Source: an uncultured Acidobacteriota bacterium (lineage in GTDB: Bacteria; Acidobacteriota; UBA6911; CAINFC01). Taken from it: a DNA stretch of 64,000 bases. Every line of letters starts with the position of its first letter. The first letter of the stretch is position 1. The position numbers and the translations under genes were made by a program. Of this stretch, positions 5,909 through 51,329 are shown piece after piece. The stretch spans positions 1 to 64,000 of the forward strand of contig CAINFC010000006.1 of assembly GCA_903847975.1 (NCBI GenBank). Reading direction: 5' to 3'. The notes below the pieces were generated by a model. It saw only the letters and a list, made by a program, of their open reading frames with translations, did no database searches and was not told the origin of the DNA.

Positions 5909-6037
5909 ATTGCTCCCTCCGAATGTTGGTTTGGGTGAGAAGTGATGATACCACTTAACGGCGGTCTCTTCCAGGTAGTCCACACCGGAAGGCGAACGCC
6001 CGGCCGTTATACCGTTTTTACTTTTCGGGTAAAATGA

Positions 6038-7411: not shown

Positions 7412-7447
7412 GGAATCGGGTATCCATTTCTGGAAAAAGGGACAACC

Positions 7448-13450: not shown

Positions 13451-13472
13451 TCGGTTCAATGAGGGTGCCATT

Positions 13473-34177: not shown

Positions 34178-34576
34178 TCAAAGCACCTCTTTCCTAAGGG
34201 GGGTGTTTCTGCCGGAGAAGAGCTTGTCGCGTAAAACCAGGAAGTCGATCGGCTTGGTCAGATACTCGTTGGCTCCCAGCCGCCTGGCCTGATCCTGCTT
34301 GTCCGACTCGTCGTAGGCGGTGATCATGAAGACGGAAAGGGACGGCCGGATTTCCTTGATCCGGCGCAGCAGCTCGATGCCGTTCATGCCGGGCATATTG
34401 ATATCCGACAGGATGAGCACGACATCCGCGGCGCTGACGCTGTTCAGATAGACCAGGGCTTCTTCGGCGGAGAAGCAGAAGTGAAAGGAAAGAAGTCCTT
34501 GCTTCAACTCCTGCCTGAATTTCTGGCGGAACAAAGCGGGAATGTCGGATTCATCGTCCACGACAAGAATTTTCAT
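34178..34576 (-). CDS. Single-domain response regulator
   Basis: Stand-alone receiver of 132 residues with LVVDDESD at the N-terminus, phosphorylatable Asp58 in ILSDINMPGMNG and the conserved Lys in LTKPIDF. It is close to the receiver of the neighbouring PP2C protein (both have SDINMP at the same position), so one probably arose from the other by duplication. It has no output domain and may be an intermediate or a phosphate sink in the relay. Its start overlaps the kinase stop by four bases (ATGA), so kinase and receiver are coupled. Confidence 0.93.
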   Translation of the reverse strand: MKILVVDDESDIPALFRQKFRQELKQGLLSFHFCFSAEEALVYLNSVSAADVVLILSDINMPGMNGIELLRRIKEIRPSLSVFMITAYDESDKQDQARRLGANEYLTKPIDFLVLRDKLFSGRNTPLRKEVL

Positions 34577-37230
34577 TTTAGATCTTTCGGCAAAAGGATG
34601 GTCACTTCCGTGAATTCGTCGACCACCGAGCTGATTCTCAATTCACCCTGGTGTTGCTTGACTACGATATCGTAGCTGAGGGAAAGGCCCAGACCGGTTC
34701 CCTTGCCGGCCGGCTTGGTGGTAAAAAAGGGATGGAAGATTTTGTCCAGGTTGTCCTTGGGAATCCCGTGTCCGTTATCGCGGATGCGTATTTCCACCTG
34801 ATCGGTCCGATCGTGCGTCTGAACCAGCAGCGCGGGGGAGTAGCCGGGCCGGTTCTCCCGGGCGCGCTCATGGGTGGCGTAGCAGCTGTTGTTGATGATG
34901 TTCAGAAATACGCGGCTGATATCCTGCGGCACGACCCGAATCGGCTGCAGCGCGCTGTCGTAGGAGGTATCGATTTTCACGTTGAAGGAGGAATCCTGGG
35001 CCCGCATGCCGTGATAGGCCAGGTTGACATATTCGGCGAGCAGGGCATTGATGTCCGTCGGCTGCCGTTCTCCCGCTTTCCCCCGCGAGTGGAGGAGCAT
35101 CCCTTTGACGATGCTGTCCGCCCTCTTTCCGTGCTCGTTGATCTTTTTGGCGTTGCTCTTCAGGTCGGCAAACAGCTCGTGCAGGTATTCCATCTCCTTG
35201 GCGTCGAACCGGTCGCCATGCTCCTTCATGAGATCGACAATTTCCTCCACCAGATCCTGGGACAGTTCGGAGAAATTGTTGATGAAATTCAGCGGGTTCT
35301 TGATCTCGTGGGCAATTCCGGCGGTAAGCTGGCCGAGAGAGGCCATCTTTTCCGCCTGAACCAGCTGGGACTGCGCCTCCTGCAGATCCCGGTGGGCTTT
35401 GCGGATGGCTTCGTAGGCCGATGCGTTGTCCAGCGCGATGGCGGTGTAGGTAGCCAGGGTGCTCAGGATATCCAGGTGGAACTGGGTGTAGGCATTCTTG
35501 TGGAAGCTCTGTACGGAGATCACCCCGATCAGCCGGTCTTCCAGCAGCAAAGGGATATAGATCAGAGAGCAGACACTTTCTCCGGCCTTGGGCTTGGCCC
35601 GGGTGGGGACATAGCGGCGGTACTCCGTATCGATATCGTTCATGAAAACGATCTGCCGGGTGGAGGCGCAGACCACCGCAAAGCGGTTGGTTTCATCCAT
35701 GGATATGTGGAAGGGGGGCAGCGGCTGCGACTTTTCGATCGACAGCTTGCACTCCAGGCGCCGGTCTTTCTCGCTGTAAATCATCAACAGGAAAGCGGAG
35801 GCGTCCATCATGGAGTTGACGTGCTGGTAGACCACGTCCTGAATCAGTTCCAGGTTCAGCGAGGAGGTGATTTTTTTGCCCGCCTCGCTCAGGATGCTGA
35901 CGTTCTGGAACGCCGTATCCAGCTCCTGATTCTTCTGTACCAGTTCGGCGGTTCTTTCCATGACCCGATGCTCCAGCGAATGGCTGTATTCCTCGAGTTT
36001 CTCATGGGAGATCCGCAGCTTCTCGGATGCGTCCTGCAGGTCGCGGATGGTCCGATACAGCTCCTTCTGCATGGCGTCAAAAGAGAGGGTCAGCTTGCCG
36101 ATTTCATTCTGGGAGCGGATGGCAGGCAGTACGGTATGGAAATTGCCCGAGGAAATCTCTCCGGCGGCTCCAGCCAGGTCCCGCAGCGGACGGGTGATGG
36201 AACGGCCGATCAGCGCCACGACCAGGAAAAGGAAAACGATGCCCACAATTCCCAGCCGCAGAACGTTGAGGTTCAGCTGGTTCACATCGGACATGAATTC
36301 GTCCACGGGATATACCACACCTACCGACCAGCCATTGCTGACGATGGGGGCATACGAGATCCAGCTCATCTTGCCGGTGGACAGGTTGGAATATTGAATT
36401 TCGGCGAAGCTGCTGGCTCCGGAAATCATTTTACGCCCGATTTCCCTCAGCTGCGGGCTGTTCTGATTTTCCGCTATGCTGAAGATGGTCTCGTTGACCA
36501 TCGCGCTTTCGACCGGGTGGGAGACGATCCCGCCATTGCGGGAAAGGATGAATCCGTATCCGGTCTGAAAGATTTTCAGGGAGCGGTTGATTTCATGCAG
36601 CCAGTGCAGCGAGACGTCGGCGGTCATGACCCCCCAGAAAACCTTTTTCCCCTGGTCGATCCGGTAGAGGGGGACCGTATAGGTGGTCATCACCTCGTTT
36701 CCGCCCCCTTCGTCGTAGTATGGCTCGCTCCAGACCGGCTTGTTCAGCTCCTTGGGAATCTGGTACCAGTCCATGGTGAAGTAGTCATAATCCGCCCCGC
36801 CCAGGTGGGACACGCTAAGTCCGGCGGCTCCCCGATACACGTAAGGGGCAAAGTACTTCTGACGCGGGTCGAAGGCCTGCGGCTCGAAAGCCACGGTGGA
36901 GCCGTAAATCTGCGGATTGACTTCCAGAAATCTTTTCAGCAGCCGGATCAGCTCCTCGTCGTTCCACTGCGACTCCTCCAGGACCAGGGAGGTGTTGTCC
37001 AGGGCGGTCTGAATGGTAGCGAAAATCTTGTCGATCTGGTTGACCATGCTGACCGTCTGATTCCGGGCATTCTCATTCAGATTTCTTTCGATGATATTAC
37101 GGGAATAGTAGTAGTTGTAGGAAAAGATAATGCCGGCGATCAGCGCCACGCTGGAAAAAATGGCCATGACCAGCTCGAAGGCCAGGCCCCTGTTTTTCCA
37201 GCTCCAGCTTGGCGGTAAGGAAAACTTCAT
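34573..37230 (-). CDS. Cache-HAMP-GAF sensor histidine kinase
   Basis: Membrane kinase of 885 residues. Membrane segment 1 (about 20-40) and a Cache-type extracytoplasmic sensor (to about 315) precede membrane segment 2 (about 320-340). A HAMP ([12 protein letters not shown]) and coiled coil lead to a GAF domain (about 440-590). The HisKA domain has [12 protein letters not shown] with phospho-acceptor His641, and the HATPase_c domain has [24 protein letters not shown] and [15 protein letters not shown] chose the ATG at 37230, one base after the preceding gene, because the longer frame merely overlaps that gene. Two sensor modules imply both outside and inside signals. Likely partners are the two receivers encoded next. 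Confidence 0.94.
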
Positions 37231-37231
37231 T

Positions 37232-38227
37232 TCAATTGAAATGAACCGTTTTGTAGAACGCCTCATACGGCGGGAGCGATTGAAGCAGCCCGTATTCCTT
37301 CAGCGTTTCGGAAACGAACCGGTAATCCTTTTCCGAAAGAACCGTCTGAAACGGGCGAGTTTCTCCCGGCAGCATCAAATCCTTCATCCGGGCCAGCATC
37401 CATCGCTGGTGGGGTAGGTTCACGGGAATCTTGGCATCCCTGGAAAAAGCGGCAATCAGGCGGATGGCCTCTTCCGTATGGCGGAAAGCGTACTGCCAGC
37501 CCTCCAGGGTGGCCAGAATAAAGTCGCGGCAGACCTGCGGCTTCTCCGCCAGGGTTTTCTCCGTGCAATAAATGCCGTCTTCGGGAAAGTTCAACCCGTA
37601 ATCGGCCAGAAAGAAGGTACGCAGCTCATCGGGATTCAGACCGAAGTTCAGAATGCTGTGATATTCGTTGTACCACATGGCGGAGGTTACGTCGATGGCC
37701 TTTTCCATGAACAGGTTGATCGACAAAGGCTGACGGATCAGCCGTACCTGCAGGTTGTATTTCTTGATGAAGGCCAGCGGCTGAACCTGGAAATCGCCGC
37801 CCCAGACTCCGATCTTTTTGCCGTTCATGTCCTCCGGCTTTTCGATGCCGCTCGATTTGCGCACAACGAACATCAGGCTGGAGCGGTGGATCAGCTGGGT
37901 GATATTGATCAGGCGAACCCCCTTCTCCCGCATCTGGATCGCGCTGGTCAGCCATAGCGAGGCAAAATCGGCCGTTCCGTTTTCCAGGTGGGCGGAAGCC
38001 GGCGACTTCGGCCCGCCGTTCAGGATGGTCACCTCCAGATTCCTCTGGCTGTAAAGGCCTTCTTTCAGTGCGCAGTAATAGCCGGCGAACTGCGCCTGCG
38101 GAATCCATTGCGGGATAAAGGTTACCCGAGCAGGCTCGACGGCCATTGCCGTTCCTGTGCCTGCCGACAGAAGCAGTAAAAATAACAGCCGACCCGGAAA
38201 CCGAAGCTTGCGGACAGCGCCGGCCAT
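37232..38227 (-). CDS. NMT1/THI5-like (SsuA/NrtA type) substrate-binding protein
   Basis: Exported protein of 331 residues. The start at 38227 gives a clean signal peptide ending TGTAMAVEP; longer frames run into adhE. The mature part is an NMT1/THI5-type binding domain, with FIPQWIPQAQFAGYYCALKEGLY at its start and MNGKKIGVWGGDFQV in the middle. Relatives bind thiamine pyrimidine precursors, taurine, nitrate or sulfonates. No cognate permease or ATPase is adjacent; its neighbours are a Cache histidine kinase and AdhE. It may therefore present a ligand to the kinase rather than serve uptake. It starts five bases after adhE and ends one base before the kinase. Confidence 0.9.
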   Translation of the reverse strand: MAGAVRKLRFPGRLLFLLLLSAGTGTAMAVEPARVTFIPQWIPQAQFAGYYCALKEGLYSQRNLEVTILNGGPKSPASAHLENGTADFASLWLTSAIQMREKGVRLINITQLIHRSSLMFVVRKSSGIEKPEDMNGKKIGVWGGDFQVQPLAFIKKYNLQVRLIRQPLSINLFMEKAIDVTSAMWYNEYHSILNFGLNPDELRTFFLADYGLNFPEDGIYCTEKTLAEKPQVCRDFILATLEGWQYAFRHTEEAIRLIAAFSRDAKIPVNLPHQRWMLARMKDLMLPGETRPFQTVLSEKDYRFVSETLKEYGLLQSLPPYEAFYKTVHFN

Positions 38228-38232
38228 GGTTT

Positions 38233-40833
38233 CTATTTGACGCCCTCTCCGCCGAAGGAATCCCAGAAGATGCGGACCAGGTCTTCCACCAGAGGATAGC
38301 AGGGGTTGCCGCCGACGCACTGATCATCGAAGGCGATCAGGGCCATTTCCTGGACCCTGGCGCGGAAGGCCTCCTCGGGAACGCCCGCTTCGCGGATGGA
38401 GGCAGGAACCCTCAATTCCGCCTTCAGCTTGGAAATAGCGGCGATGAGATTTTCCACCCCTTTTTCCGCGGTAGCTCCCGGAAATCCCAGGCTGGCCGCA
38501 ATTTCCGCATACCTCTCCTTGGCTTGGTGGTAGGGGTAGTTCGGAAAGGGCACGAACTTATTGGGCGGAGCGGCATTGTAGCGGATGACCGGAATCATGA
38601 CCATGGCATTGGCGCGACCGTGCGGGATATGGAAGGTCGCTCCGAGAATGTGGGCCAGGCAGTGGTTGATTCCCAGGAAGGCGTTGGTGAAAGCCATTCC
38701 GGCGATGGTGGAAGCGTTGTGCATTTTTTCGCGGGCCTTCATGTTCCTGCCGTCTTTGTAGGCGGTCGGAAGATATCCGAAGATCAGCTGGATCGCCTTT
38801 AATGCCAGGGGATCCGTGTAGTCGGAAGCGGCCACCGAAACAAAGGCCTCTACGGCATGGGCCAAAACATCCAGGCCCGTGTCGGCGGTTACCTCTGCGG
38901 GAACGGACAGGGTAAGATTCGGATCGATGATGGCCACGTCCGGTGTCAAGGCGTAGTCCGCCAGGGCGTATTTTGCCTGCTTCCTCGGATCGGTGACCAC
39001 GGTGAAGGCAGTGACTTCCGAGCCGGTTCCGCTGGTGGTCGGAATGGCGATAAGCCTGGCCTTCTTGCCCAGAGCGGGGTAGCGAACGATCCGCTTGCGG
39101 ATGTCCATGAAGCGCAACCGCAGGTCGTCGAAACTCATTTCCGGCTGCTCATAGAAGAGCCACATGGCCTTGGCGGCATCCAGAGGAGACCCTCCGCCAA
39201 CGGCGATGAGCAGGTCCGGCTCGAATTTGCGTATGGCCTCCACCCCTTTTTCCACGGTTTCCACGGTCGGATCCGGAGTGACATCGGAAAAGACTGCCGC
39301 CAGAATTCCCGCTTCCCGAAGATACTTTTCCAGCCTTTCGACGATCCCCTGGCGCATGGACGATCCGGAGCAGACAATGAACGCGCGCCGCGCTCCCATC
39401 TCCTTTATTTCATGACGGAAGAAGGTGTCCATGCATCCGGGCTCGAAATAGATGCGGGGCGGAACTCGAAACCATTTCATATTCAGCATTCTCCTGGATA
39501 CGCGCTTGATGTTCAGCAGGTGGGAGCAGGTCACGTTGTCCGTGGTGATGTTGCGCCCCCCGGCGCCGCAGCCCAGGGTGAGCGAAGGATGGATGCGGTT
39601 GTAAACGTCTCCGATCCCGCCGAAGGTAGACGGGCAATTGACCAGCAGTCGTCCGGCATTGATGGTTTCCCCGAACTGGCGGATCACTTCCTGGTTGCTG
39701 GAATACAGGGAAGCGGTGTGCCCCAGGCCGCCAAAGTGAGTCAGGTCGGTGCAAAGATTTACCCCCTCTTCCAGGCTGCGGACCACATAGAAGCCGAGAA
39801 TGGGACTCAACTTTTCGCGGGACAGGGGGTATTGGTCGCCGACCCCCTTGAGGCGCGCCACCAGAACCCGGGTTTCCGGAGGTGCGGAAATTCCCGCCAG
39901 CTCGGCGATTCGCTTGGGGGAGCGGCCGACCACCTTGGCAGACATGCTCTGCTTGTCCATGTCGATGGCTACCGATTGGACCTTGGCGATTTCCTCCGCT
40001 TTCAGAAAATAGGCACCCATCGATTCGAACTTGCGGATCACCGCCTTTTCTATTTCCGCATCCACGACAACCGCCTGCTCCGAAGCGCAAATCATGCCGT
40101 GGTCGAACGTTTTGCTGAGCAGGATGTCATTGACGGCCATATCGATGTCCGCCGATTTTTCGATGTAGACCGGAACGTTACCCGGTCCCACGCCGATGGC
40201 GGGAATGCCGGAAGAATAGGCGGCCTGTACCAGGCTGGTTCCTCCGGTGGCCAGGATAAGGGAGATTCCCGGATGGGTCATCAGGGCGTGGGTCAGCTCC
40301 CGGGAAGAGTGCTCCGTCCAGCGGATGCAGTAGTCGGGCGCCCCGGCGGCCAGCGCGGCCTCATAAACGATGCGCGCCGCTTCATTGGTGCATTTCAGAG
40401 CGTTTCGCGAACCGCAGATGATGATGGAATTGCGGGTCTTGAGAGAAAGGAGGCACTTGAAGAGCGTGGTGGAAGTAGGATTGGTGACCGGAATGATGCC
40501 CAGTATGATCCCCAGGGGTTCGGCGAATTCCATGATCCCGGTTTCGGTGTTGTCCTGAATGAGCCCGACGGTCTTCACGTCCCGAATGTCGTTGTAGACG
40601 TATTCGGTGGCGAACAGGTTCTTGATTACCTTGTCTTCAAAAAGGCCCATCCCGGTTTCATCGACCGCCATGCGGGCCAGTTCCAGGCGCTGCGCCGCGC
40701 CCGCCCGGGCGGCGGCATAAACAATCCGGTCGACATCTTCCTGGGAATACTGCGTGAAAAGCGCCGCGGCCTCGTTGGCCTGGCGCACCATTTCGTTGGC
40801 GATTTCGGTTACATCTCGTTTGGCGTTTTCCAT
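38233..40833 (-). CDS. adhE: Bifunctional acetaldehyde-CoA/alcohol dehydrogenase
   Basis: AdhE reduces acetyl-CoA to acetaldehyde and then to ethanol, consuming two NADH. The 866 residues show both halves. The N-terminal aldehyde dehydrogenase domain (about 1-440) has catalytic Cys249 in DHGMICASEQ. The C-terminal iron-dependent alcohol dehydrogenase (about 450-866) has GGGSPLDAAKAMW, IPTTSGTGSEVT and the metal-ligand region GINHCLAHILGATFHIPHG. The start at 40833 (MENAKRD) is behind GGGATACG. Length matches E. coli AdhE. Its place inside a signalling operon, between a STAS protein and a binding protein, is unusual and ties fermentative redox balance to that pathway. Confidence 0.96.
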   Translation of the reverse strand: MENAKRDVTEIANEMVRQANEAAALFTQYSQEDVDRIVYAAARAGAAQRLELARMAVDETGMGLFEDKVIKNLFATEYVYNDIRDVKTVGLIQDNTETGIMEFAEPLGIILGIIPVTNPTSTTLFKCLLSLKTRNSIIICGSRNALKCTNEAARIVYEAALAAGAPDYCIRWTEHSSRELTHALMTHPGISLILATGGTSLVQAAYSSGIPAIGVGPGNVPVYIEKSADIDMAVNDILLSKTFDHGMICASEQAVVVDAEIEKAVIRKFESMGAYFLKAEEIAKVQSVAIDMDKQSMSAKVVGRSPKRIAELAGISAPPETRVLVARLKGVGDQYPLSREKLSPILGFYVVRSLEEGVNLCTDLTHFGGLGHTASLYSSNQEVIRQFGETINAGRLLVNCPSTFGGIGDVYNRIHPSLTLGCGAGGRNITTDNVTCSHLLNIKRVSRRMLNMKWFRVPPRIYFEPGCMDTFFRHEIKEMGARRAFIVCSGSSMRQGIVERLEKYLREAGILAAVFSDVTPDPTVETVEKGVEAIRKFEPDLLIAVGGGSPLDAAKAMWLFYEQPEMSFDDLRLRFMDIRKRIVRYPALGKKARLIAIPTTSGTGSEVTAFTVVTDPRKQAKYALADYALTPDVAIIDPNLTLSVPAEVTADTGLDVLAHAVEAFVSVAASDYTDPLALKAIQLIFGYLPTAYKDGRNMKAREKMHNASTIAGMAFTNAFLGINHCLAHILGATFHIPHGRANAMVMIPVIRYNAAPPNKFVPFPNYPYHQAKERYAEIAASLGFPGATAEKGVENLIAAISKLKAELRVPASIREAGVPEEAFRARVQEMALIAFDDQCVGGNPCYPLVEDLVRIFWDSFGGEGVK

Positions 40834-41392: not shown

Positions 41393-42409
41393 TCAGGGTT
41401 TTGCGGAGCGGAAAAGATGCAGTTGCCATAGGTCCCGGTCGGTCTGTTGCAGAATGGGCGCCACGGCCAGGCAGCCGGCATACCCCAGGTTCTTTTTCAG
41501 AGCGTAGAGTTCCTCAAAAAGATCGGACACCTCCGGATCCTGCGGAAGTGGAAGGCCGTTTTCCTTGAAAAAAAGCAGCCCTTTGGCTTTCAGAGAAAGC
41601 TCCGCATGTACCCGCACGTAGCACACCATGTCGGCCAGCATTTCTCCGGGAAAGTGCTCCTTGAGGGTCTGCAGGTAGTCGCCGATCCGGGAATTCCGCA
41701 CCTGGCCGCCGCAGATAATATCCAGAAGGGCCACGTCGGAATCGAAACTTTCCCGGAGCCACGACTTCAGCTTGGCTTCGCTTCTGGTAAAGGCGACCAG
41801 GATAACGGGAGGTACGACCAGGAGGAGAACCAGCGTGGCCGTCACCGGGGCTAAAACGAAATGGTTAAACAGGGAGTGGAGCAGGGCGGCCACGGCCAGC
41901 CCGGAAAGCAGGGCAGCCGGAAGACGGTACTGGCGGAGTTCCAGGAGGTCTATGGTCAGAACGGCCGCCAGGGCGGTCATACCGCTGTGCATCAGCGCGG
42001 TGCCGAAGCCGCGCACCGCCCACAGCAGAAGGTTTTTCTCCGACCAGGTCAAAAGGTAGAAAATGTTTTCCAGGAAGGCAAAACCGGCACCGATCAGGGC
42101 GCCGTAAATGGTAGCATCCACAAGGAATCCGATCTTCTTTCTGCGAAACAGCCAATAAAGAAAGGTGCCCTTGGTGAGCTCTTCGATGACCGGCGCGATA
42201 TATCGGGGGTATTGGGATTCCACACCGGGAAAAAGAAAGAACAGCGACCGGTAAATTCCCAGGCTAAGGCCGGCGGAGGCCAACCCGGCAAGGAAGCAGG
42301 CGCCCAGCATTCTCCAGGGGGTCAGCTTGTACCCATCCATCAGGACCAGGCCCAGCACAAAGCCGAGCACGGGAAACAGGCTGATGGCTGCCTTGGGCCA
42401 CTCGCTCAT
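41393..42409 (-). CDS. PrsW-type intramembrane protease
   Basis: Polytopic membrane protein of 338 residues in the PrsW (M82, glutamic-type) family. The paired glutamates are in APVIEELTKG (Glu76, Glu77), with GAGFAFLEN (Glu114) and later histidine-containing helices (ALMHSGMTAL, HSLFNHFVLAP). In Bacillus, PrsW makes the first cut in the anti-sigma factor RsiW. A soluble C-terminal part of about 100 residues follows the membrane domain. Start and upstream stop overlap as ATGA with the zinc-peptidase gene, so the two proteases are coupled. The substrate is not identifiable here. Confidence 0.9.
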   Translation of the reverse strand: MSEWPKAAISLFPVLGFVLGLVLMDGYKLTPWRMLGACFLAGLASAGLSLGIYRSLFFLFPGVESQYPRYIAPVIEELTKGTFLYWLFRRKKIGFLVDATIYGALIGAGFAFLENIFYLLTWSEKNLLLWAVRGFGTALMHSGMTALAAVLTIDLLELRQYRLPAALLSGLAVAALLHSLFNHFVLAPVTATLVLLLVVPPVILVAFTRSEAKLKSWLRESFDSDVALLDIICGGQVRNSRIGDYLQTLKEHFPGEMLADMVCYVRVHAELSLKAKGLLFFKENGLPLPQDPEVSDLFEELYALKKNLGYAGCLAVAPILQQTDRDLWQLHLFRSAKP

Positions 42410-45333
42410 TGAATCCTCATGGATACCATCCACCCGTTGGTCGGCGGCGCGCCTTTTTCATATGCGCGTGCCAGTCCGGCCGAGAAGGTGAATTGATAAT
42501 GAGAAACCGCCATGGTATGAAAATCAACCTGCCCGCCGGTGTTGAGCAGGCTGCGGCGGAAGGCCGAATCGGTAAAATCGACACACAAGGCGGTGGCAAA
42601 CAGCGATGGCTTGATCCAGTTGAGGAAAAACAGGGGAGAACCTGCGCCGTGCAGCAGAATAGGGGGGAGACTCCACTCCAGCTGAAAGCGGTCGAAATGA
42701 TTGCCGGCCACATCATCGATTTCTCTGCCCGGAAAGCGCAGGTAATCGCGATAGCGCTTTTCATCCAGGTGGTCCACCCAGTTGTTTCCGAATCCCCCAA
42801 AATAAAAATTGGCGAAGGGGTATTGCCTTTTTCCGTATGACTTGCCGACACTGTTTCGGATCCACACCGAGGAGTGAGGAATGGGCAGCTGGAAGCCGTA
42901 ATCCAGATGGGCGGTCAGCCGGGGGTAAAGGTTGCGGTCCACCATCTGGCTGCCGAAGGAAAGCCGAACCCGGTATCCTTTCTCATCCTCCACCGATCCG
43001 AGAGACCTCCGGAAAAACCGGTAGTCGAGCCTGGCCCCGAAAGAAAGCATTTTGTCGAAGCCGGCATCAATGTTCTGGTATTCCGGCAACTTGTCCAGGC
43101 CGCGATAATAATCGGCATAAAAAGTGTAGTCCAGATACCGGTTGGGTTCATCAAATATCAGGTATTTCTGGTACTCCCCGCCTACGTACAATCCTTTGCG
43201 GCTCGTTTTCCTTGGGCCGAAGAGGTCGTAGAAGTCGGAATAGTTATAGGCGCCCTTCAGCTTCCATTCCCAATGGTTAAATTCACTTTTCCAGTGGATT
43301 CGCTCCCGGGAAAGCAGCTGGCCCGCAGGCGAATAAGATAAGGTGGTATCCAGCCGGTTCAGCATCAGGGAATCCGACAGGTGAAAGTTGATTCCCGGAG
43401 CGGCTGTGTTTTTGTACCCTTCCAACGTCGGATACCCATAGTCAAATTTGAAATCCTTGATCCAGCGATATCGGGATGCATGCAGGAAAGCCGGCTCTCC
43501 GGCTTTTGCGGTGGGGGAGCCGGACCCCCATTCCTTGACGGACGGGTGTCGCTCAACGATACTCTGCCCCAGAAAGCGGATGGAGTTGATTTTATCGACC
43601 GGCTGGTCGGACAGCAGGACCGGGATAAGGCCGGTGTCCGTGTAGCGGAACGCCAGCAGGGATCCGGCCCCGATCCATATCGGGCAGAACATCCCGGTTT
43701 CCGTATTGGTTACGGGTTCGGTTTTCCCGCTGGCAAGATGATGACGGTAAATATTGGCAACGCCGGAATAGTAGGAGCTGCCGTACAGGTAAGCGCCGTC
43801 CGGGGAAAAAGTAAACGCGGAGGGCGTGCTGTCGTCGAAGTCGGAGATTACCTTGATTTTTTCCTGGCCCTGCCGCAGTGCCTCTACATCCATGACCGCC
43901 AGGGACTGCTGCCCGCTGAGCCGGTTCAGGACCAGGGCCAGTGACTTTCCGTCCGGCGACATGCTGAGGTCGAATCCGCTGGTTCCGTAGGGCCAGGTGA
44001 GGATCTGATTCCAATGCCGGTAAGGCCGCGGAATGCGAACCAGGGTGGCAAAGCCGTTGTCATGGCGGACACCCCAAAGGGCTCCATCGACCGGGTGGAC
44101 GACCAGGTCGCCTACCCGCGCATCCTTGATGAGGGTGGTTGATTTTTTTCCGTCTACGCCCACGGACCGAAGGTCCCGCCAGTCATTGTTGTCGGCAGTA
44201 TAAAACAGCGTCCTGGTTCCGGGATCGTAGGCCAGGGAAGTCACGTTATGTAAGGAAGGACCTTTGACATCGGCGATTTTTCTCAGTTGCCCGCTGGCAA
44301 TATCCATTGCTGCCAGGTGGGCAACCTGACCCGGGTAGTTGACGCCAAGGTAAAGTTCACGGGTAGAGGAATCAAAATAGGCCCGGGAAAGCCCCCCAAT
44401 GGACTGCGAAGTGATGGGGCGGAAGTCAGTCGTCGGGTTTTCCCTTATTTTTTTCAGGTTGTCCTGCTGGAACTCTTTCTCCCAGCGGCCCCAATCCTTC
44501 CAGGCCGCATCGATCGGCAGGCCGAAGACTTTCTGGAACTGGGAAACGAAATAAGCTTTGCTGCCGCTGGTTCGCTTCACCCATTGAAGCAGGCTCTCCG
44601 GTCCGTACTTCAACCCGAGATATCCAAAAAAGCGGGTACCGTAAAAATAGGGGATTGCCATACCTCGAAAATCGGTTTTGCCGCCTACGGCATCCAGGCC
44701 CAGGCGATCCAACAGGGCCTTGTTCTCGGCAATTCGGGTTCGAAACATCATTTCATCGTAGCCACCGAACAGCCGGCCGCTTCCCCCGGTGCGCCAGGTT
44801 TCCATGAAGACGGCAATCCCTTCGAGGTACCACCCGGGGGCCATGGCTCTCGGAGAGGTCAGGAATGCGTACCCGAAAGAAATTGGATTCGACTCCGTCG
44901 GCATCACCTTGCCCATGAAAATTTTTCGGAAGAGGTGGTCCCTTCCTGCCGCCTGGTCCATGGTAACGATATGTGCCAGTTCATGATTCATGATGTAATT
45001 GATGCGCTCCGTGGCCGGCAGGGTTTCAAAAACAAAACGCTGCGGCGCGACGGCGGTGGTGATGTTATTTTTGGGGATCGATCCGGCCGCTCCATTCAGA
45101 TAATCCTTGATGTCGTAAACCAGGACGGACATTTTACCGTCCGGTTCGTATTGGAACTGATCCCGGTAAAGCTTCAAGGCGTTTTCGAACGTGCGGGCGA
45201 CATGATCCACCAGGTAGGATTGAGCCTGCCCGAAATAAAGAAGCCGGAGGTTGTCGCTTTCCCGCAGATAAAACTGGGCTTGCAAAGGTGTGACGCAGAA
45301 GAGGAACAGGAGCGCCCACTTGGCGATTCTCAT
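42406..45333 (-). CDS. Exported zinc peptidase-like protein with propeller and C-terminal barrel
   Basis: Protein of 975 residues with a signal peptide (1-19, PLQAQ). A gluzincin-type metalloprotease domain (peptidase MA clan) has His117-Glu118-Leu-Ala-His121 and the third ligand Glu171 in GWYLEGIAVFMETW. From about 300 to 620 it carries TolB-like propeller repeats (for example SMSPDGKSLALVLN, TFSPDGAYLYGSSY). The last 320 residues alternate aromatic and polar positions like outer-membrane beta strands (LDYTFYADYYRG, RYLDYTFY). It resembles the peptidase-propeller-barrel proteins of Bacteroidota and Acidobacteriota. It probably sits in the outer membrane with the peptidase in the periplasm. 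It overlaps prsW by four bases. Confidence 0.85.
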   Translation of the reverse strand: MRIAKWALLFLFCVTPLQAQFYLRESDNLRLLYFGQAQSYLVDHVARTFENALKLYRDQFQYEPDGKMSVLVYDIKDYLNGAAGSIPKNNITTAVAPQRFVFETLPATERINYIMNHELAHIVTMDQAAGRDHLFRKIFMGKVMPTESNPISFGYAFLTSPRAMAPGWYLEGIAVFMETWRTGGSGRLFGGYDEMMFRTRIAENKALLDRLGLDAVGGKTDFRGMAIPYFYGTRFFGYLGLKYGPESLLQWVKRTSGSKAYFVSQFQKVFGLPIDAAWKDWGRWEKEFQQDNLKKIRENPTTDFRPITSQSIGGLSRAYFDSSTRELYLGVNYPGQVAHLAAMDIASGQLRKIADVKGPSLHNVTSLAYDPGTRTLFYTADNNDWRDLRSVGVDGKKSTTLIKDARVGDLVVHPVDGALWGVRHDNGFATLVRIPRPYRHWNQILTWPYGTSGFDLSMSPDGKSLALVLNRLSGQQSLAVMDVEALRQGQEKIKVISDFDDSTPSAFTFSPDGAYLYGSSYYSGVANIYRHHLASGKTEPVTNTETGMFCPIWIGAGSLLAFRYTDTGLIPVLLSDQPVDKINSIRFLGQSIVERHPSVKEWGSGSPTAKAGEPAFLHASRYRWIKDFKFDYGYPTLEGYKNTAAPGINFHLSDSLMLNRLDTTLSYSPAGQLLSRERIHWKSEFNHWEWKLKGAYNYSDFYDLFGPRKTSRKGLYVGGEYQKYLIFDEPNRYLDYTFYADYYRGLDKLPEYQNIDAGFDKMLSFGARLDYRFFRRSLGSVEDEKGYRVRLSFGSQMVDRNLYPRLTAHLDYGFQLPIPHSSVWIRNSVGKSYGKRQYPFANFYFGGFGNNWVDHLDEKRYRDYLRFPGREIDDVAGNHFDRFQLEWSLPPILLHGAGSPLFFLNWIKPSLFATALCVDFTDSAFRRSLLNTGGQVDFHTMAVSHYQFTFSAGLARAYEKGAPPTNGWMVSMRIQ

Positions 45334-45381: not shown

Positions 45382-45407
45382 GGAAAGGGGGCGGATACCC
45401 CCTTCCC
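45382..45407 (-). other. Stable 10-bp hairpin between repeat-protein and peptidase genes
   Basis: On the minus strand GGGAAGGGGG and CCCCCTTTCC pair over ten base pairs (one G-U) around the loop TATCCG. No T-run follows, so it is not a standard intrinsic terminator. It lies between two co-directional genes and could pause transcription or protect the mRNA 3' end of the repeat gene. Confidence 0.5.
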
Positions 45408-45445: not shown

Positions 45446-46321
45446 TTAAATAACGATGTTCGGATTGGCCAGAACGGACTGGAAGCCGGGATTGGCCAGA
45501 ACCGACTGGAAGTTCGGATTGGCCAGCACCGACTGGAAATTGGGGTTGGCCAGCACCGACTGGAAGTTCGGATTGGCCAGAACCGACTGGAAATTGGGAT
45601 TGGCCAGCACCGACTGAAAATTGGGGTTGGCCAGAACCGACTGGAAGTTCGGATTCGCCAGGACAGACTGGAAATTGGGATTGGCCAGAACGGACTGGAA
45701 GCCGGGATTGGCCAGAACCGACTGGAAGTTGGGATTGGCCAGCACCGACTGGAAATTGGGATTGGCTAAAACGGACTGGAAATTCGGATTGGCGGAAACC
45801 GAGTTGTTATTCGGGTTGGCCAGCACCGACTGGAAGTTGGGATTGGCCAGCACCGACTGGAAATTGGGATTGGCCAGCACCGATTGAAAGTTGGGATTGG
45901 CCAGCAGGCTTTGGAACTGCGGATTGGCCAGCACCGATTGAAATCCCGGGTTGGCAAAAGCGGACTGAAAGTTGGGATTGGCCAGCACCGACTGGAAGTT
46001 GGGATTGGCCAGCACCGATTGGAAGTTGGGATTGGAGCAGACCGACACGAAGCCGGGATTGGAAAGGACCTGACGGAACTCTTTGTTTTTCAGAGCGGTC
46101 TGCACCTGGTCATTCTGCAGCAGAGTCTGCACTTCCGGATTCTGCAGGAGCACATCTTTGTCGGTCACCTGGGTGGAACGGTAGCGTTCCGCTCTCTGTA
46201 CCCCGCCCATGGTGCCGGCGGTGCCTTCTTCCGTGGGCCCGGGAAAAAAGTAGGCCAGGCAGCCAACCACCAATAACGCAAGAACGGTAAAGAACGCAAA
46301 GTAAATTTGCTTTCGGCTCAT
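45446..46321 (-). CDS. Probable lipoprotein built of NPNFQSVLA nonapeptide repeats
   Basis: Protein of 291 residues of unknown family. The N-terminus is a hydrophobic signal (RKQIYFAFFTVLALL) that ends in VVGC, fitting a lipobox with lipidated Cys21; a simple membrane anchor is the alternative. After a 35-residue linker come three degenerate nine-residue units (NPEVQTLLQ, NDQVQTALK, NKEFRQVLS) and then 22 near-perfect units with consensus N-P-N-F-Q-S-V-L-A, ending NPNIVI. The third position is N, G or Q, and one unit (NPNNNSVSA) is aberrant. The pattern of Phe, Val and Leu every nine residues suggests short helices in a solenoid; the NP-x-F-x-x-L-L flavour recalls STI1/ubiquilin motifs. It lies between an ABC transporter ATPase and a secreted peptidase on the same strand. 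I know no described family with this repeat. Confidence 0.85.
   Translation of the reverse strand: MSRKQIYFAFFTVLALLVVGCLAYFFPGPTEEGTAGTMGGVQRAERYRSTQVTDKDVLLQNPEVQTLLQNDQVQTALKNKEFRQVLSNPGFVSVCSNPNFQSVLANPNFQSVLANPNFQSAFANPGFQSVLANPQFQSLLANPNFQSVLANPNFQSVLANPNFQSVLANPNNNSVSANPNFQSVLANPNFQSVLANPNFQSVLANPGFQSVLANPNFQSVLANPNFQSVLANPNFQSVLANPNFQSVLANPNFQSVLANPNFQSVLANPNFQSVLANPGFQSVLANPNIVI
45467..46060 (-). repeat. 22 tandem copies of a 27-bp coding repeat
   Basis: Exactly 22 units of 27 bases within the nonapeptide-repeat gene; three weaker units continue to 46141. Units differ mostly at synonymous positions. Units 1-3 (45467-45547) and 9-11 (45683-45763) match over 81 bases with two differences, which shows a past duplication of a 216-base block. 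Confidence 0.95.
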
Positions 46322-46401: not shown

Positions 46402-47214
46402 TTAAACGTATTCCTGCCGCAAGGATGAGAGCAGTTCCTCCGTCAGCTGTTCCGATTTGCGGAGCTCGTTGAACTTGTCCAGAAGATCGTGTACCGTGAG
46501 ACGCCTTTTTTCGGCCCCCGGGATGTCGTCGATTACCGAACCCTTGTGCATCATAATGGTGCGGTCGCCCAGCTCCAGAGCCTGCTGCATGCTGTGGGTC
46601 ACCATCAAAGCCGTCAGCTTGTCGCGCTCGATAAACCGCCTGGTCAGCCCGATCACCAGAGCAGCCGACTTGGGGTCCAGAGCCGCGGTGTGTTCGTCCA
46701 AAAGAAGGACTTTCGGGCGGGTCAGGACCGCCATCAGCAGCGTCAGGGCCTGGCGCTGCCCGCCTGACAGGCTCCCGATCTGGCTGGAAAGCCGATCTTC
46801 CAGCTTCATCTCCAGGAGGGACGCTTCCTGTCGGTAGACTGCCATCCTTGAAGCGGTCAGCCCCAGTCGTGGGAAGCACTTTTTATCGCGCAGGTATGCC
46901 ATATGCAGATTTTCGGCAATGGTCATCTGCGCGGCCGTTCCCGTAAACGGATTCTGAAAGACCCGCGCGATATGGTGCGCCCGTTCATGTTCCTTCCGTA
47001 AAGTCACATCATTCCCGTCGATCCGGATGAGGCCCTGGTCGGGCGAAAATGTACCGGCGACGGCGTTGAGCAGCGTGGATTTTCCGGAACCGTTGGTCCC
47101 GATAACCGTAACAAATTCACCCGGACGAATATGAAGGTTAATGCCGCACAAAGCGTAGCACTCGTTTCCTGTCCCGGCATTAAAGCGCTTGTGAAGATCC
47201 CGGATCTCAATCAT
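46402..47214 (-). CDS. ABC transporter ATP-binding protein
   Basis: ATPase subunit of 270 residues. Walker A is GTNGSGKST, the Q loop is VFQNPFTGT, the signature is SLSGGQRQALTLL, Walker B is VLLLDEHTAALDP and the switch His is in MVTHSMQQA. It resembles the ATPases (TrpZ-like) that accompany ABC_sub_bind permeases. The start at 47214 (MIEIRD) has AGGAAAC seven bases upstream; a start at 47250, overlapping the previous stop, is also possible and would add 12 residues. It directly follows the permease fused to two binding domains, with which it should form one importer. Confidence 0.94.
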   Translation of the reverse strand: MIEIRDLHKRFNAGTGNECYALCGINLHIRPGEFVTVIGTNGSGKSTLLNAVAGTFSPDQGLIRIDGNDVTLRKEHERAHHIARVFQNPFTGTAAQMTIAENLHMAYLRDKKCFPRLGLTASRMAVYRQEASLLEMKLEDRLSSQIGSLSGGQRQALTLLMAVLTRPKVLLLDEHTAALDPKSAALVIGLTRRFIERDKLTALMVTHSMQQALELGDRTIMMHKGSVIDDIPGAEKRRLTVHDLLDKFNELRKSEQLTEELLSSLRQEYV

Positions 47215-47242
47215 GACCGTTTCCTGCCTGTCCCTTGGAAGT

Positions 47243-50104
47243 TCATTCATGGATGCTCTTTCCGCCTGCTTTCCCGTACACTTTCCGGGCTTTCTTCAGA
47301 AACTCCGGACGGATCGCAAGACCGCAGGAGCGCGCGGCGTCCAGATTCAGAAGAAAAAGGGTCGCGCCGGTCTGCTGGATCGGCATGGCAGCCGGGCTTT
47401 CGCCCTGCAGTATGCGGGCCAGGTAAAGGCCGCCATCGTACCCCGTGCGGTAATAGTCCGGACCCAGTACAGCCATGGCGCCTTTTTCGATGAATTCCGA
47501 GTCCACGGAAAAAACGGGGATTTTATTCTCGGCGGCGACCTTGGCGAAACTGTCAAAACCGACGTTCAACGTGTTGTCCCCCGAATTGAGAAACACCTGA
47601 GCGCCCTTGAGCGCCAAGGAACGGGATGCCTCCAGAACTTCGGAGGGTCCGGTAACCGTGGCTTCCAGGATTTTCTGTCCGGTCTGTGCTGCGTGGGAGC
47701 GGATCTGGAGAAGCACCGATTCGGAATTGGCTTCCGAACTGTTCCACACCACGCCGATGATATTTTTATCCGGCAGCATAGTGCGGATCAGGTCCAGCAT
47801 TTCTGCAATAGGCGGAAAGCAGGACACCCCGGTCACATTGGCAGGATGATCCGTCGCTGTTCTGGCCGCTCCGGCGCGATAGGGGTCGTAGACGTAGGTA
47901 AAGACTACCTGCACATCCGGGCGCCCGCCGGCAAACCGGGCTGCGGCCTGCACGCAGGGGGTAGACAGCGGAACGATGATGTCCACCTTTCGGCGCACCA
48001 TGTCCTGGACGATCGGGCTGATGTTGGAAATTTCCGCCTGGGCATTCCGGAAAAGGAACTCCGGCGTGCGGCTCCCCGTAAAGCCTTTATCTTCCAAAGC
48101 CTTCTGAATCCCCTGCTTGCATAGTTCCACGTTGGGTTCCAGGGCAAACTGGACTATGCCGATCGAGGGAGCTTTATTCGGACTTGGACGGCTGGACACC
48201 ACTTTCCCGTTTTCAATGAAACGCGTGGCCTGGCTGCGGATATCCTCCGGCACATTCATGCCGTATCGCCTGGCGACGTCCAGATTCAATCCTATGGTTA
48301 CCCGGGAATACCTCTCGAAGGGAATTGCCCCGGGCTTTTCGCCTTTCAGAATACGGTTCACCATTTGGGCCGCCTGAATGCCGCTGCTGGTGTAATCGTA
48401 CCCGTAGGCCAGCAGCGCACCGTCCTTGAGCCGCTCCACATCGGCAATGAATATCGGGATCCGAGCTGCGGCAGCGGCTTTGACCACCGAATCAAACGCG
48501 GAATAGACCAGGTTGTCCGGGCTGAGGACAAAGGCACGAATTCCTTTCTGAACCAGGGAAACCGCGGCGGTATACACTTCAGCGGAGCTGGTGATCGTTG
48601 CTCCCTGAAAGGTTATCTCCGGGTTGGCCTGCAGCGCTTTTCGGAGCAGCTCAACATTGAAGACCGAATTGGCCTGTGCCGGATCCCAGATGGCTCCGAT
48701 GGTCATGGGCCCGGGAATAAAACTGCGGGACAGCTCCAGCATTTTTTCCATGGAAACCCAGCCATAAACCCCGGTGACATTGGACAAATGGTCGGTTTCG
48801 CTTTTTCCGGCACCGATAATAAAAGGATTGGCAATGGTCGAAAAAACGACCGGCTTGGATTTGATCTTATTTATGGCCGCCTGGGTGCACGCCGTGGAAA
48901 TGGTTACCACCAGGTCGACGTTCTGCTGCAGGAACTTGTCCAGAATCGTATTGACCGTGGCCAGATCGCCATGGGCGTTTTCCAGGTAAATGATCCCCTT
49001 TTTACCCGGCCCGTAGCCCAGGTTGCCTAACTCCTGGACCAGGGCATCGCGGGTTATGTTGAGGAGGCCGTTGTCGGTCAGCTGGACGACTCCGATCTGT
49101 ACCGTCTTGCTTTCCTGACCTCCGAGATGCATCCAAACGGCGTAGCCGGCGAGTGCGGCGGCCAGCAACAGGACAGCGGCTGCTGCAATCTTTTTCCCGA
49201 TCCGGCTGCGCCCGATGCCCACGAGGGGCGACCGGCTTTTGGCGGCGGGGCGAAAGGACTTGGAAATTACCAGGGTCAGCAGCACAAAAATCGCGGTGAG
49301 CAGTTTCAAATCAATCGGATTCATGCCGACAAACAGAGCGGCGGCTATCAGAAAGCGGAAGAGGATGGAACCCACGATCACCCCCAGGACCCGCGTGAAC
49401 ATGGAAGTTCCTTTCAGGATCGCTTCTCCGATAATGACCGCCGCGAGGCCGATCACGACGGTTCCAATGCCCATACCGATATCGGCGAATCCCTGGTACT
49501 GGGCCACCACGGCTCCAGACAGACCGACGAAGCCGTTGGCCAGGGCCACCCCGAAAAGCGTCATTCCGCTTACGCTCCGTCCGTTTGCGGCCGCCATGGC
49601 CGGATTGTTTCCGGTCACTCGCATGGCGATTCCCAGGTCGGTTTTAAAGAAAAAGGCCAGTGCCGCCCAGAAAAAACAGAGGCATCCGGAAAGAACCAGC
49701 GCATTCCAGCCTTCCGGATGAATGCCGGGATTCCAGAGCGCGATCCGGGTGAAGACCGTTTCCTGGTTGAGCAGCGGAATATTGGAACGGCCCATGACGT
49801 GAAGATTGATGGAATAAAGCGCCGTCATCACCAGGATTCCGGATAGGAGTCCATTGATTCGAAAGCGGGTGTGGATGAAGGCGGTCGTCCAACCGGAGGC
49901 CAGACCAACGGCGAATGCCGCTGCCAGAGCGGCCAACGGATGGACCCCGGCGGTAAGCAGCACCGCGCACCAGGCCGCTCCCGCCGTAAAGCTGCCGTCT
50001 ACGGTGATATCCGGGAAATCGTGAATCCGAAAGGTTAGGAACACACCCATCGTCATGAAGGCATAAAGAAGGCCAAGACTGATTGCGCCCACCCAAAGTT
50101 CCAC
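47243..50104 (-). CDS. ABC permease fused to two ABC_sub_bind substrate-binding domains
   Basis: Fusion protein of 953 residues. Residues 1-285 are a LivH/BPD_transp_2-type permease with about eight membrane segments (start SLGLLYAFMTMGVFL; RVTGNNPAMAAANG coupling region). A further membrane helix (about 305-325) would carry the chain into the periplasm. Residues about 335-625 and 648-945 are two ABC_sub_bind domains, each with the family signatures (IGAIWDPAQANSV and IGVVWNSSEANSE in the hinge). Normally permease and binding protein are separate genes. The start is GTG, eight bases after AAGGAT and four bases after the STAS-protein stop. The two domains are clearly diverged, so the duplication is not recent. 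The substrate is unknown; TrpX relatives bind tryptophan. Confidence 0.92.
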   Translation of the reverse strand: MELWVGAISLGLLYAFMTMGVFLTFRIHDFPDITVDGSFTAGAAWCAVLLTAGVHPLAALAAAFAVGLASGWTTAFIHTRFRINGLLSGILVMTALYSINLHVMGRSNIPLLNQETVFTRIALWNPGIHPEGWNALVLSGCLCFFWAALAFFFKTDLGIAMRVTGNNPAMAAANGRSVSGMTLFGVALANGFVGLSGAVVAQYQGFADIGMGIGTVVIGLAAVIIGEAILKGTSMFTRVLGVIVGSILFRFLIAAALFVGMNPIDLKLLTAIFVLLTLVISKSFRPAAKSRSPLVGIGRSRIGKKIAAAAVLLLAAALAGYAVWMHLGGQESKTVQIGVVQLTDNGLLNITRDALVQELGNLGYGPGKKGIIYLENAHGDLATVNTILDKFLQQNVDLVVTISTACTQAAINKIKSKPVVFSTIANPFIIGAGKSETDHLSNVTGVYGWVSMEKMLELSRSFIPGPMTIGAIWDPAQANSVFNVELLRKALQANPEITFQGATITSSAEVYTAAVSLVQKGIRAFVLSPDNLVYSAFDSVVKAAAAARIPIFIADVERLKDGALLAYGYDYTSSGIQAAQMVNRILKGEKPGAIPFERYSRVTIGLNLDVARRYGMNVPEDIRSQATRFIENGKVVSSRPSPNKAPSIGIVQFALEPNVELCKQGIQKALEDKGFTGSRTPEFLFRNAQAEISNISPIVQDMVRRKVDIIVPLSTPCVQAAARFAGGRPDVQVVFTYVYDPYRAGAARTATDHPANVTGVSCFPPIAEMLDLIRTMLPDKNIIGVVWNSSEANSESVLLQIRSHAAQTGQKILEATVTGPSEVLEASRSLALKGAQVFLNSGDNTLNVGFDSFAKVAAENKIPVFSVDSEFIEKGAMAVLGPDYYRTGYDGGLYLARILQGESPAAMPIQQTGATLFLLNLDAARSCGLAIRPEFLKKARKVYGKAGGKSIHE

Positions 50105-50108
50105 GGGG

Positions 50109-51329
50109 TTATCCTTTCAGTTCGATCATGCCGATTACACCGCTGCTGAATCGGCTACGTCCGAGAAGGTGCTGCACGCGGACCGGGTTCAGCTCCGTTA
50201 GCACGCGGGACAGTTCCCCCTCGAAAGCATCGGGGTTCTTGTGGATCGGTCCTTTTTGAAAAACACAGCCGTGCAGATGCGATCGGGTATCCCGGGAGAA
50301 AAGCTTCCGTACCTCCGGCCGGCAGAGACTCAGATCACGGCAGGCAATCCCAACAGCGGCCACAATGTGATTTTCGTCGGCCGGTTCCAGGGGAAAATTG
50401 ACCCAGGCGGGGAATTGTGACCCGTCAAAGATCTCCTCTCCGGTTGCGGGACGGTTTTCGCGGATGGGTGACTTTTTCAGGTTCATTCCGAAAATGCCCT
50501 TGCTCTCCGCCAGGAGGACCATGCCCGCCATCGGCCAGCCGGACGGCAAGGCGAGTACCCAGTCCGCGATTTCGTCCAGAGTAACATAGGCCCGGCCAGC
50601 TTCAAAGGAAGCAACATAGCGGCAGCTGCCGCCGAATCCGAAGCCGTGAAGAAAACGAAACTCCTCGTTTGACCCGGGGCCGGAGTAAATCATGAAATCC
50701 ACCGCCGGCCGGCTGACTGCGGGGTAGTAGAAGAAATGGTGATTCAGGAGCAGCGCTTCGCCGAAGAGCGATTTGAATTCCTCGTATCCCTCTCCGCTGG
50801 CCGCCAGCCCCGTACCGTACCGGTAACTTCCCTGGGGCACCGGAACGACGTCCTCCGGCTGGTAGTCGGCGCGGGATAGCTTCTCGGAGGACCCGATCAG
50901 GGCAAGGGTTTCCGGAACGGCATCATATTCCCGGAGCCGGAACACGGTTCCATCGGGGCGGATCTGTTCTTCGGGACCCGCAGGGAGCGGAAGGAACTCC
51001 CCATCCAGCAGCCCCTGCTCGGTATCAACGAACCGGAAAAACCGATCAAATCCGCCCACGGTGAAAACGCTTTTCAGCTTTTCCGGCACCTGGAAGAGAA
51101 TCAGCTCGCCGCCCACCTTTTTTAATTCCTTTTGAACGGCGAAAAAAAGACGAAGCCCCAGGCTTGAAAGAAAGGTGGTGGATGCAAGGTCCACCAGAAG
51201 ATACCTTTTGCCGTCGCGTATCATTTGCTCCAGATGCTGCTGCACTTCGGGTGAACTCATGCCGTCGATCCGCCCCTCCACCGACAGTTGGGCGAGACCA
51301 CGGAGCTCTTTCAGGGTACAAAAGGCCAT
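50109..51329 (-). CDS. STAS domain fused to a large unassigned C-terminal region
   Basis: Protein of 406 residues. Residues 1-100 are a STAS domain: DLASTTFLSSLGLRLFFAV holds the serine region, and GGFDRFFRF is the usual C-terminal helix. Residues about 105-406 match no family I recognise. They are cytoplasmic in character, aromatic-rich around 195-215 (NHHFFYYP), and include a GFGFGGSCRY segment, like a small-molecule or enzyme-type domain. It heads the operon containing the permease-binding-protein fusion and its ATPase. STAS domains on transporters usually regulate them, so a regulatory role toward the transporter is a reasonable inference. Confidence 0.82.
   Translation of the reverse strand: MAFCTLKELRGLAQLSVEGRIDGMSSPEVQQHLEQMIRDGKRYLLVDLASTTFLSSLGLRLFFAVQKELKKVGGELILFQVPEKLKSVFTVGGFDRFFRFVDTEQGLLDGEFLPLPAGPEEQIRPDGTVFRLREYDAVPETLALIGSSEKLSRADYQPEDVVPVPQGSYRYGTGLAASGEGYEEFKSLFGEALLLNHHFFYYPAVSRPAVDFMIYSGPGSNEEFRFLHGFGFGGSCRYVASFEAGRAYVTLDEIADWVLALPSGWPMAGMVLLAESKGIFGMNLKKSPIRENRPATGEEIFDGSQFPAWVNFPLEPADENHIVAAVGIACRDLSLCRPEVRKLFSRDTRSHLHGCVFQKGPIHKNPDAFEGELSRVLTELNPVRVQHLLGRSRFSSGVIGMIELKG

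Follow-up and report, generated by a model that had tools for sequence, protein, structure and literature searches.

Our analysis showed that the nonapeptide-repeat protein encoded on the reverse strand of the window (the whole 64,000-nucleotide stretch of DNA that was analysed) is not a single odd protein but part of a conserved, apparently unnamed gene set present in at least two bacterial phyla. In this set, the gene of an array protein is followed by those of PEP, a protease joined to a beta-propeller and a predicted beta-barrel, and of a PrsW-type intramembrane protease. Judged from sequence, the array protein belongs to a family of membrane-anchored proteins, found in Acidobacteriota, Ignavibacteriales and relatives, in which a G(T)IGG..AxRYRxxQ motif is combined with an array that differs from lineage to lineage, and this family is one of anti-sigma factors, whose members would inhibit sigma factors. 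We give an even chance to the reading that the protein forms a rod of short helices in the periplasm, anchored in the inner membrane, which works with outer-membrane PEP and with PrsW and whose ancestor served as the sensor arm of an anti-sigma factor. The features of the locus are listed in Table 1.

Table 1. Positions of the array gene, its neighbours and their parts in the window.
Feature	Position	Strand	Remarks
STAS-domain protein, 132 aa	40856..41254	-	
PrsW-type intramembrane protease, 346 aa	41393..42433	-	
PEP: secreted gluzincin metalloprotease, TolB-like beta-propeller and predicted C-terminal beta-barrel, 975 aa	42406..45333	-	
Predicted beta-barrel of PEP	42409..43482	-	residues 618-975, about 17 strands
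TolB-like beta-propeller of PEP	43594..44439	-	residues 299-580
HELAH zinc-binding motif of PEP	44971..44985	-	third ligand E171 at 44821-44823
Terminator-like hairpin	45382..45406	-	separates array gene from PEP; stem of 9 bp and weak T tail
Array protein gene, 291 aa	45446..46321	-	short N-terminus, one TM segment, AERYR motif, nine-residue array
22 nine-residue units	45467..46060	-	residues 88-285; modelled as one short helix per unit
Three degenerate starter units, NPEVQTLLQ, NDQVQTALK and NKEFRQVLS	46061..46141	-	residues 61-87, before the 22 regular units
Conserved family motif GTMGGVQRAERYRSTQ	46169..46216	-	residues 36-51
Predicted TM anchor	46247..46309	-	residues 5-25, contains VVGC; N-in/C-out by positive-inside rule
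ABC importer ATPase	46402..47250	-	
ABC permease fused to two ABC_sub_bind (TrpX-like) binding domains	47243..50104	-	
STAS-domain protein, 406 aa, with a long extension at the C-terminus	50109..51329	-	same neighbour in L016

An open reading frame with a nonapeptide array had been reported at this position in a preliminary description, and our analysis confirmed both. Its ATG is directly preceded by GAGGAG, a ribosome-binding-like sequence. The 27-bp array (45458-46062; 22.4 copies, 80% matches, 0% indels) was the sole tandem array reported by TRF in the 64 kb. By sequence, the 22 regular units consist of 15 NPNFQSVLA, 3 NPGFQSVLA, and one copy each of NPGFVSVCS, NPNFQSAFA, NPQFQSLLA, and NPNNNSVSA; 20 of the 22 fit the pattern NPxFQS[VLA][LF]A. 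The earlier statement of 22 units of NPxFQSVLA was right as to the regular units but a slight overcount of the strict pattern, which only 18 of them follow. The three degenerate units described alongside the array are present and precede the regular ones, and the protein ends in NPNIVI.

Ahead of the array, the window protein carries the TM segment and then the family motif, G(T/A)(I/M)G..AxRYRxxQ..DV. The protein had been described as a lipoprotein on account of VVGC. These letters are present and fit a lipobox formally, with hydrophobic residues coming after the Cys, but the Cys is missing in every aligned relative and is unique to the window copy. By this comparison the window protein is probably not a lipoprotein. 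With the predicted N-in topology, the array would be periplasmic, as would normally be the protease and propeller of an outer-membrane barrel protein. The periplasmic location guessed at earlier is in line with this prediction.

A search of 60 related genomes found a single clear relative, in G028, a genome of the same class as that of the window. A scan of the contigs of close relatives with the full protein gave no match; alignment of the N-terminus was needed. The G028 protein and two G057 loci share the window N-terminus (TM segment, P-rich stretch, and GT(I/M)GG.Q(K/R)xxR(Y/F)R..Q). A profile of this N-terminus detected relatives in named Acidobacteria, Ignavibacteriales and one Balneolales bacterium record, and was positive in 18 of 396 Acidobacteriota genomes. 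No model specific to the array protein exists in Pfam or NCBIfam. Several of the first matches, at L003, L005-L008, and L010, were rejected as unrelated repeats in wrong frames or collagen-like or RTX-like repeat proteins. A tblastn search against phages gave repeat-type matches of 24-29% identity in Pseudomonas phages.

The units of the family differ from lineage to lineage (SDAFREALK, DAAFQELLK, VEDFRNLIA, NKDVLAALS, SAAFAGLLK, NADFTALLG, SPDFSRLMA, DARFAELAK, and others), and the arrays are mostly of period nine, with about 10 to 95 copies between lineages. Across 23 nine-residue arrays, a large hydrophobic residue occupies position 4 in 90%, position 7 in 67%, and position 8 in 82% of the units, and the other positions in less than 20%, percentages that lean upward since the array phase was picked to favour the 4/7/8 pattern; the period of nine is visible in the sequences regardless. 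A degenerate or non-nine-residue region fills the array slot in L022, L023, L092, L093, L098, and L099, indicating that a regular rod is not always needed. L058 contains a 1064-aa open frame (4493-7684, -) with about 95 nine-residue units after an anti-sigma-like N-terminus. L063 has two array-family proteins (3860-5044 and 6270-7160, +) ahead of one PEP, and their units differ, 18-residue KLITGEAGAKYMVPVDSG in one and 8-residue QKMVVGDA in the other.

PEP begins with a signal-peptide-like sequence. Its HExxH motif (HELxH) and downstream Glu are invariant in all 42 PEP sequences compared, as expected of a gluzincin. The propeller aligned to TolB with Z of 22-23 over about 240 residues (rmsd 2.6-3.0). 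The approximately 17 C-terminal strands, together with a weak Omp85_2 match in the L018 orthologue, suggest an outer-membrane barrel. The window PrsW matched PF13367 above the cut-off (E 3.3e-21) and the equivalog model NF033739 below it. The hairpin between the array gene and PEP may be a chance occurrence; as a terminator, it might make the array protein more abundant than PEP.

Counterparts of PEP at the other array loci are typically about 1000 aa long and nearly always the next gene after the array, followed by PrsW; the window PEP is 43-47% identical to them, and the window PrsW 41% to its own counterparts. The array-PEP-PrsW order is common to loci of two phyla. PEP was found in 22 of 396 Acidobacteriota genomes, which include all 18 array-positive ones (Fisher p=1.2e-27), and in the four genomes with PEP only the gene stands at, or close to, the end of a contig. 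Of 395 genomes from the L018 phylum, 30 possess PEP. Where the contig continues, the fetched loci nearly always have an array protein or the family N-terminus directly upstream of PEP. Many contigs (G624, G451, G455, G726, G519, and others) stop just upstream of PEP, and we attribute these breaks at the array to repeats in short-read assemblies. The unit types group by clade in the PEP tree, which fits vertical inheritance in which the units are slowly rewritten. The conserved system with PrsW and a protease that had been anticipated is thus borne out by gene order across two phyla and by the co-occurrence of array and PEP. The ABC genes, which had been named as part of it, are occasional neighbours only, although the same importer adjoins the array in L016 and L093.

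A divergent branch (L101-L110) has a more distant PEP (E about 1e-204 to 1e-236). The upstream protein, a secreted one, possesses a signal peptide, an AxRYRVxQ-like motif, and units of 15-16 residues, e.g. SNSQLEELGSRYGFLR; no PrsW or sigma gene is nearby. The motif HMM was significant for just one of these loci, L110 (E 9e-4), so that the homology of this branch with the nine-residue family would rest mainly on position and a short motif. Its array proteins are mutually related and stand among other conserved genes. In L108 (3220-4200, +), 16 identical SGSQLDELGSKYGWVR units have only three DNA forms, and this array has been homogenised recently, unlike the old nine-residue arrays.

An ECF sigma gene was found directly upstream of the array gene in 30 fetched loci. 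In 24 of these 30, our home-made HMM detected an anti-sigma-like domain, either within the array protein or encoded by its own gene, nine of the 24 being rows on which it was trained; of the six without a match, two show HxxxCxxC at the N-terminus. The same HMM had no match in the window, L023, L054, L055, L060, L061, or L096, all of them sigma-less, the L060 contig extending only 1 kb upstream of the array. The best matches of the small domain were anti-sigma models (NF052375 in 7 of 10 queries, best 5.9e-7; PRK13920; RseA_N at 0.021), all below curated cut-offs but recurrent. In L018 (4632-5762) and L019 (4620-5762), both on the forward strand, a conserved internal Met (EASMEQTP) lies between the anti-sigma domain and the TM segment; with separate genes in other loci, this makes an internal start possible there.

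No ECF sigma gene was found near 45 kb of the window, and the best ECF matches of its genome to the L016 sigma (33-38% identity) are on other contigs. The cytoplasmic part of the window protein comprises only about 5 residues before the TM segment, with no anti-sigma HMM match in 36-56 kb. The simplest reading of these sequences is that the window lineage lost both the sigma gene and the anti-sigma domain. Genes for an RsbW-like ATPase, STAS and Ser/Thr kinase-TPR proteins are often upstream in the relatives' loci. The order in G028 (L016), i.e. binding protein, STAS, permease, ATPase, sigma, and array protein, nearly matches that of the window, with sigma kept, and L093 has both importer and sigma. 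Permease and binding domains form one chain in the window and are encoded by separate genes in L016.

Elsewhere in the window, 7448-15866 (+) encodes a 2000-aa bacterial alpha-2-macroglobulin (MG2, A2M, bMG10) and, immediately after it, a VIT/VWA protein which resembles inter-alpha-trypsin inhibitor heavy chain. A hybrid two-component sensor with Reg_prop propellers is encoded at 35-4246 (+) and a second Reg_prop protein at 20116-22173 (-). A dCache/GAF sensor kinase adjoins a separate solute-binding-like protein at 34573-38320 (-), possibly as a sensor pair.

Each unit was predicted as a seven-residue helix and a two-residue turn in an AlphaFold2 model built with 12 family members. The pLDDT of the array model was about 70-82 in the C-terminal half and below 50 in residues 1-59 (mean 64.6), a moderate confidence which idealised repeats can flatter. 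The model agrees with the earlier proposal of a helical array grown from short units. No Foldseek match to it was found below E 0.1, and the best VIA-align Z, 5.8, was with designed helical repeat proteins and is too low for a same-fold claim. Neither program returned a natural solved relative, which is not proof of a new fold; the best match in a PDB sequence search had only E 0.058.

When all 22 window units were compared, pS was 0.50 and pN 0.11 (pN/pS 0.22), with 18 distinct DNA units; a pN/pS of 0.13 from just the 20 units picked by regular expression is biased low. Variation is seen at the wobble bases but not in the protein, which indicates that reading frame and unit sequence are under selection. 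The ratio was 0.17-0.34 in the arrays of the window, L017, L018, L020, L088, and L090, and about 0.7, i.e. under weaker constraint, in those of L054 and L056. In L018 and L019, two Ignavibacteriales, the arrays are 97.8% identical over 186 aligned residues with 0 gaps, at a pS of 0.84 (saturated) and a pN of 0.015, while the PEP proteins are 86.5% identical (pN 0.079). L090 and L091 differ by 1 gap column in 348, and L054 and L055 are gap-free over 441, the array there evolving faster than PEP. Only L057 and L058 differ in unit number, with 90 gap columns. Unit order and number are therefore frozen in three of four related pairs, which speaks against both neutral slippage and a peptide precursor that fluctuates freely.

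In Bacillus subtilis, PrsW is the site-1 protease of the anti-sigma factor RsiW (PMC3498285). We infer physical contact, cleavage and signal flow among rod, PEP and PrsW in the array family as well. When a signal arrives at the outer membrane, or the membrane comes under strain, PEP would hold or cut the rod differently; once the rod is cut or released, PrsW would clip the membrane part, and in the relatives this step would free the ECF sigma factor by regulated intramembrane proteolysis. The window copy, which has kept rod, PEP, PrsW, STAS and ABC importer, may have an output that is structural or runs via the STAS or importer proteins; with neither sigma gene nor anti-sigma domain, a signalling output is not readable from the window locus. 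If the coupling is true, the family would show how a repeat rod can measure, across the periplasm, a signal at the outer membrane, and the role of PrsW in these Gram-negative lineages would have a ready explanation.

The main rival to this signalling reading is a purely structural rod, a tether or ruler spanning the envelope from the inner membrane to the PEP barrel or peptidoglycan, for which the anti-sigma fusion would provide feedback only. The unit-by-unit retention of array length in L018/L019 and L090/L091 at saturated synonymous sites, the gap-free L054/L055 pair, the helix-per-unit model, the Tol-Pal parallel of the propeller, and the persistence of array and PEP where sigma and PrsW are lost all fit such a rod. 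However, the unit number varies from about 10 to 95 between lineages, whereas the width of the periplasm should not vary; the invariant protease site of PEP argues for cleavage; and degenerate arrays exist. We consider the purely structural rod unlikely, if still worth serious attention.

It is improbable that the array is a multi-copy peptide precursor from which PEP and PrsW release a lineage-specific nonapeptide signal for import by the ABC importer. Near-identical units within a genome that are private between lineages would suit this, as would the adjoining proteases (and importer, in the window, L016 and L093) and the Arg/Lys ends of the 16-residue units in the divergent branch. But the shared hydrophobic positions 4/7/8, with the others free, point to a fold rather than to an identical released peptide; the units reach just 43-64% consensus in L054, L055, L057, L058, and L087; related species keep the same order and number of units; and the importer is present at few loci.

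A kinship with STI1/ubiquilin had also been suggested. The window array does match STI1-HOP_DP (Pfam PF17830) at 7.7e-21, and that of L090 at 5.4e-19, and in STI1 domains short helices, which turn by about 90 degrees where prolines are conserved, surround a hydrophobic groove (PMC13083928). On this reading, the array helices would form a hydrophobic groove holding unfolded clients or transmembrane segments. However, the best stretch spans 25 of 55 profile positions, and the orthologous arrays without NP (L018, L020, L054) score below the cut-off or not at all. Same-family arrays match unrelated repeats above the cut-off equally well (Plasmodium HRP at 5e-26, FG nucleoporin), which indicates that the STI1-type matches are compositional; a chaperone scaffold of this kind is accordingly very improbable. 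A TPR_END_plus match likewise covered 23 residues only and was rejected.

Neutral slippage, for which the tandem 27-bp repeats, the likeness of units and recently homogenised 16-residue arrays such as L108 (3 distinct DNA units among 16) might speak, has next to no chance and is refuted as a full account of the tested nine-residue arrays by the window pN/pS at its pS, by indel-free arrays despite saturated synonymous change, and by the hydrophobic pattern of the nine-residue units, which recurs across many lineages.

The literature covered, from which most subscription papers are excluded, describes no system in which PrsW or an anti-sigma factor is combined with repeats or with a TolB-like protein, nor does it describe the array family. 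The array-PEP-PrsW set is thus apparently undescribed as a combination, while its parts (ECF/anti-sigma with PrsW, TolB-like propeller, gluzincin) are of known kinds. Tentatively, and with more doubt than belief, we propose a nine-residue one-helix solenoid, rewritten between lineages yet frozen within them, which would be cut or read by PEP, coupled to PrsW and ECF sigma, and act as a trans-envelope ruler or strain gauge. The arrays also amount to a natural experiment in protein design, with many sequences for seemingly one nine-residue helical unit and orthologues conserved unit by unit.

Compared with known systems, the array shares short N-P-capped amphipathic helices and tight turns with the STI1/HOP DP and ubiquilin STI1 domains, but there is no family-wide homology, and the array is bacterial, predicted periplasmic and made of one-helix units. 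Designed helical repeats (DHR) and designed fibres are the best-scoring structures for the array model, whose helices are only seven residues long. In Tol-Pal, an inner-membrane rod (TolA) reaches a propeller on the outer-membrane side (TolB). The PEP propeller aligns to TolB and the array would be an inner-membrane-anchored helical arm, but this propeller is in one chain with protease and barrel, and the helices of the array are short, unlike the long one of TolA; having the propeller fold in common says nothing about function.

As in the ECF sigma and membrane anti-sigma systems that regulated intramembrane proteolysis activates, such as SigW-RsiW-PrsW-RasP of B. subtilis and RpoE-RseA of Escherichia coli, an ECF sigma gene overlaps or precedes that of a predicted N-in single-pass protein in most relatives, with an anti-sigma-like cytoplasmic domain in or beside the array protein and a PrsW gene close by. 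Unlike in these systems, a tandem array makes up the periplasmic part, a conserved protein of protease, propeller and putative outer-membrane barrel is added, and the window copy is without sigma and anti-sigma domain. No FecR or TonB-receptor domain was found. In systems of the FecI-FecR-FecA type, a sigma factor, an inner-membrane anti-sigma factor with a periplasmic arm, and an outer-membrane barrel are encoded together. By analogy, the array family may be likened to these in its set of sigma factor, anti-sigma arm and predicted barrel, but its barrel protein carries a metalloprotease and a TolB-like propeller.
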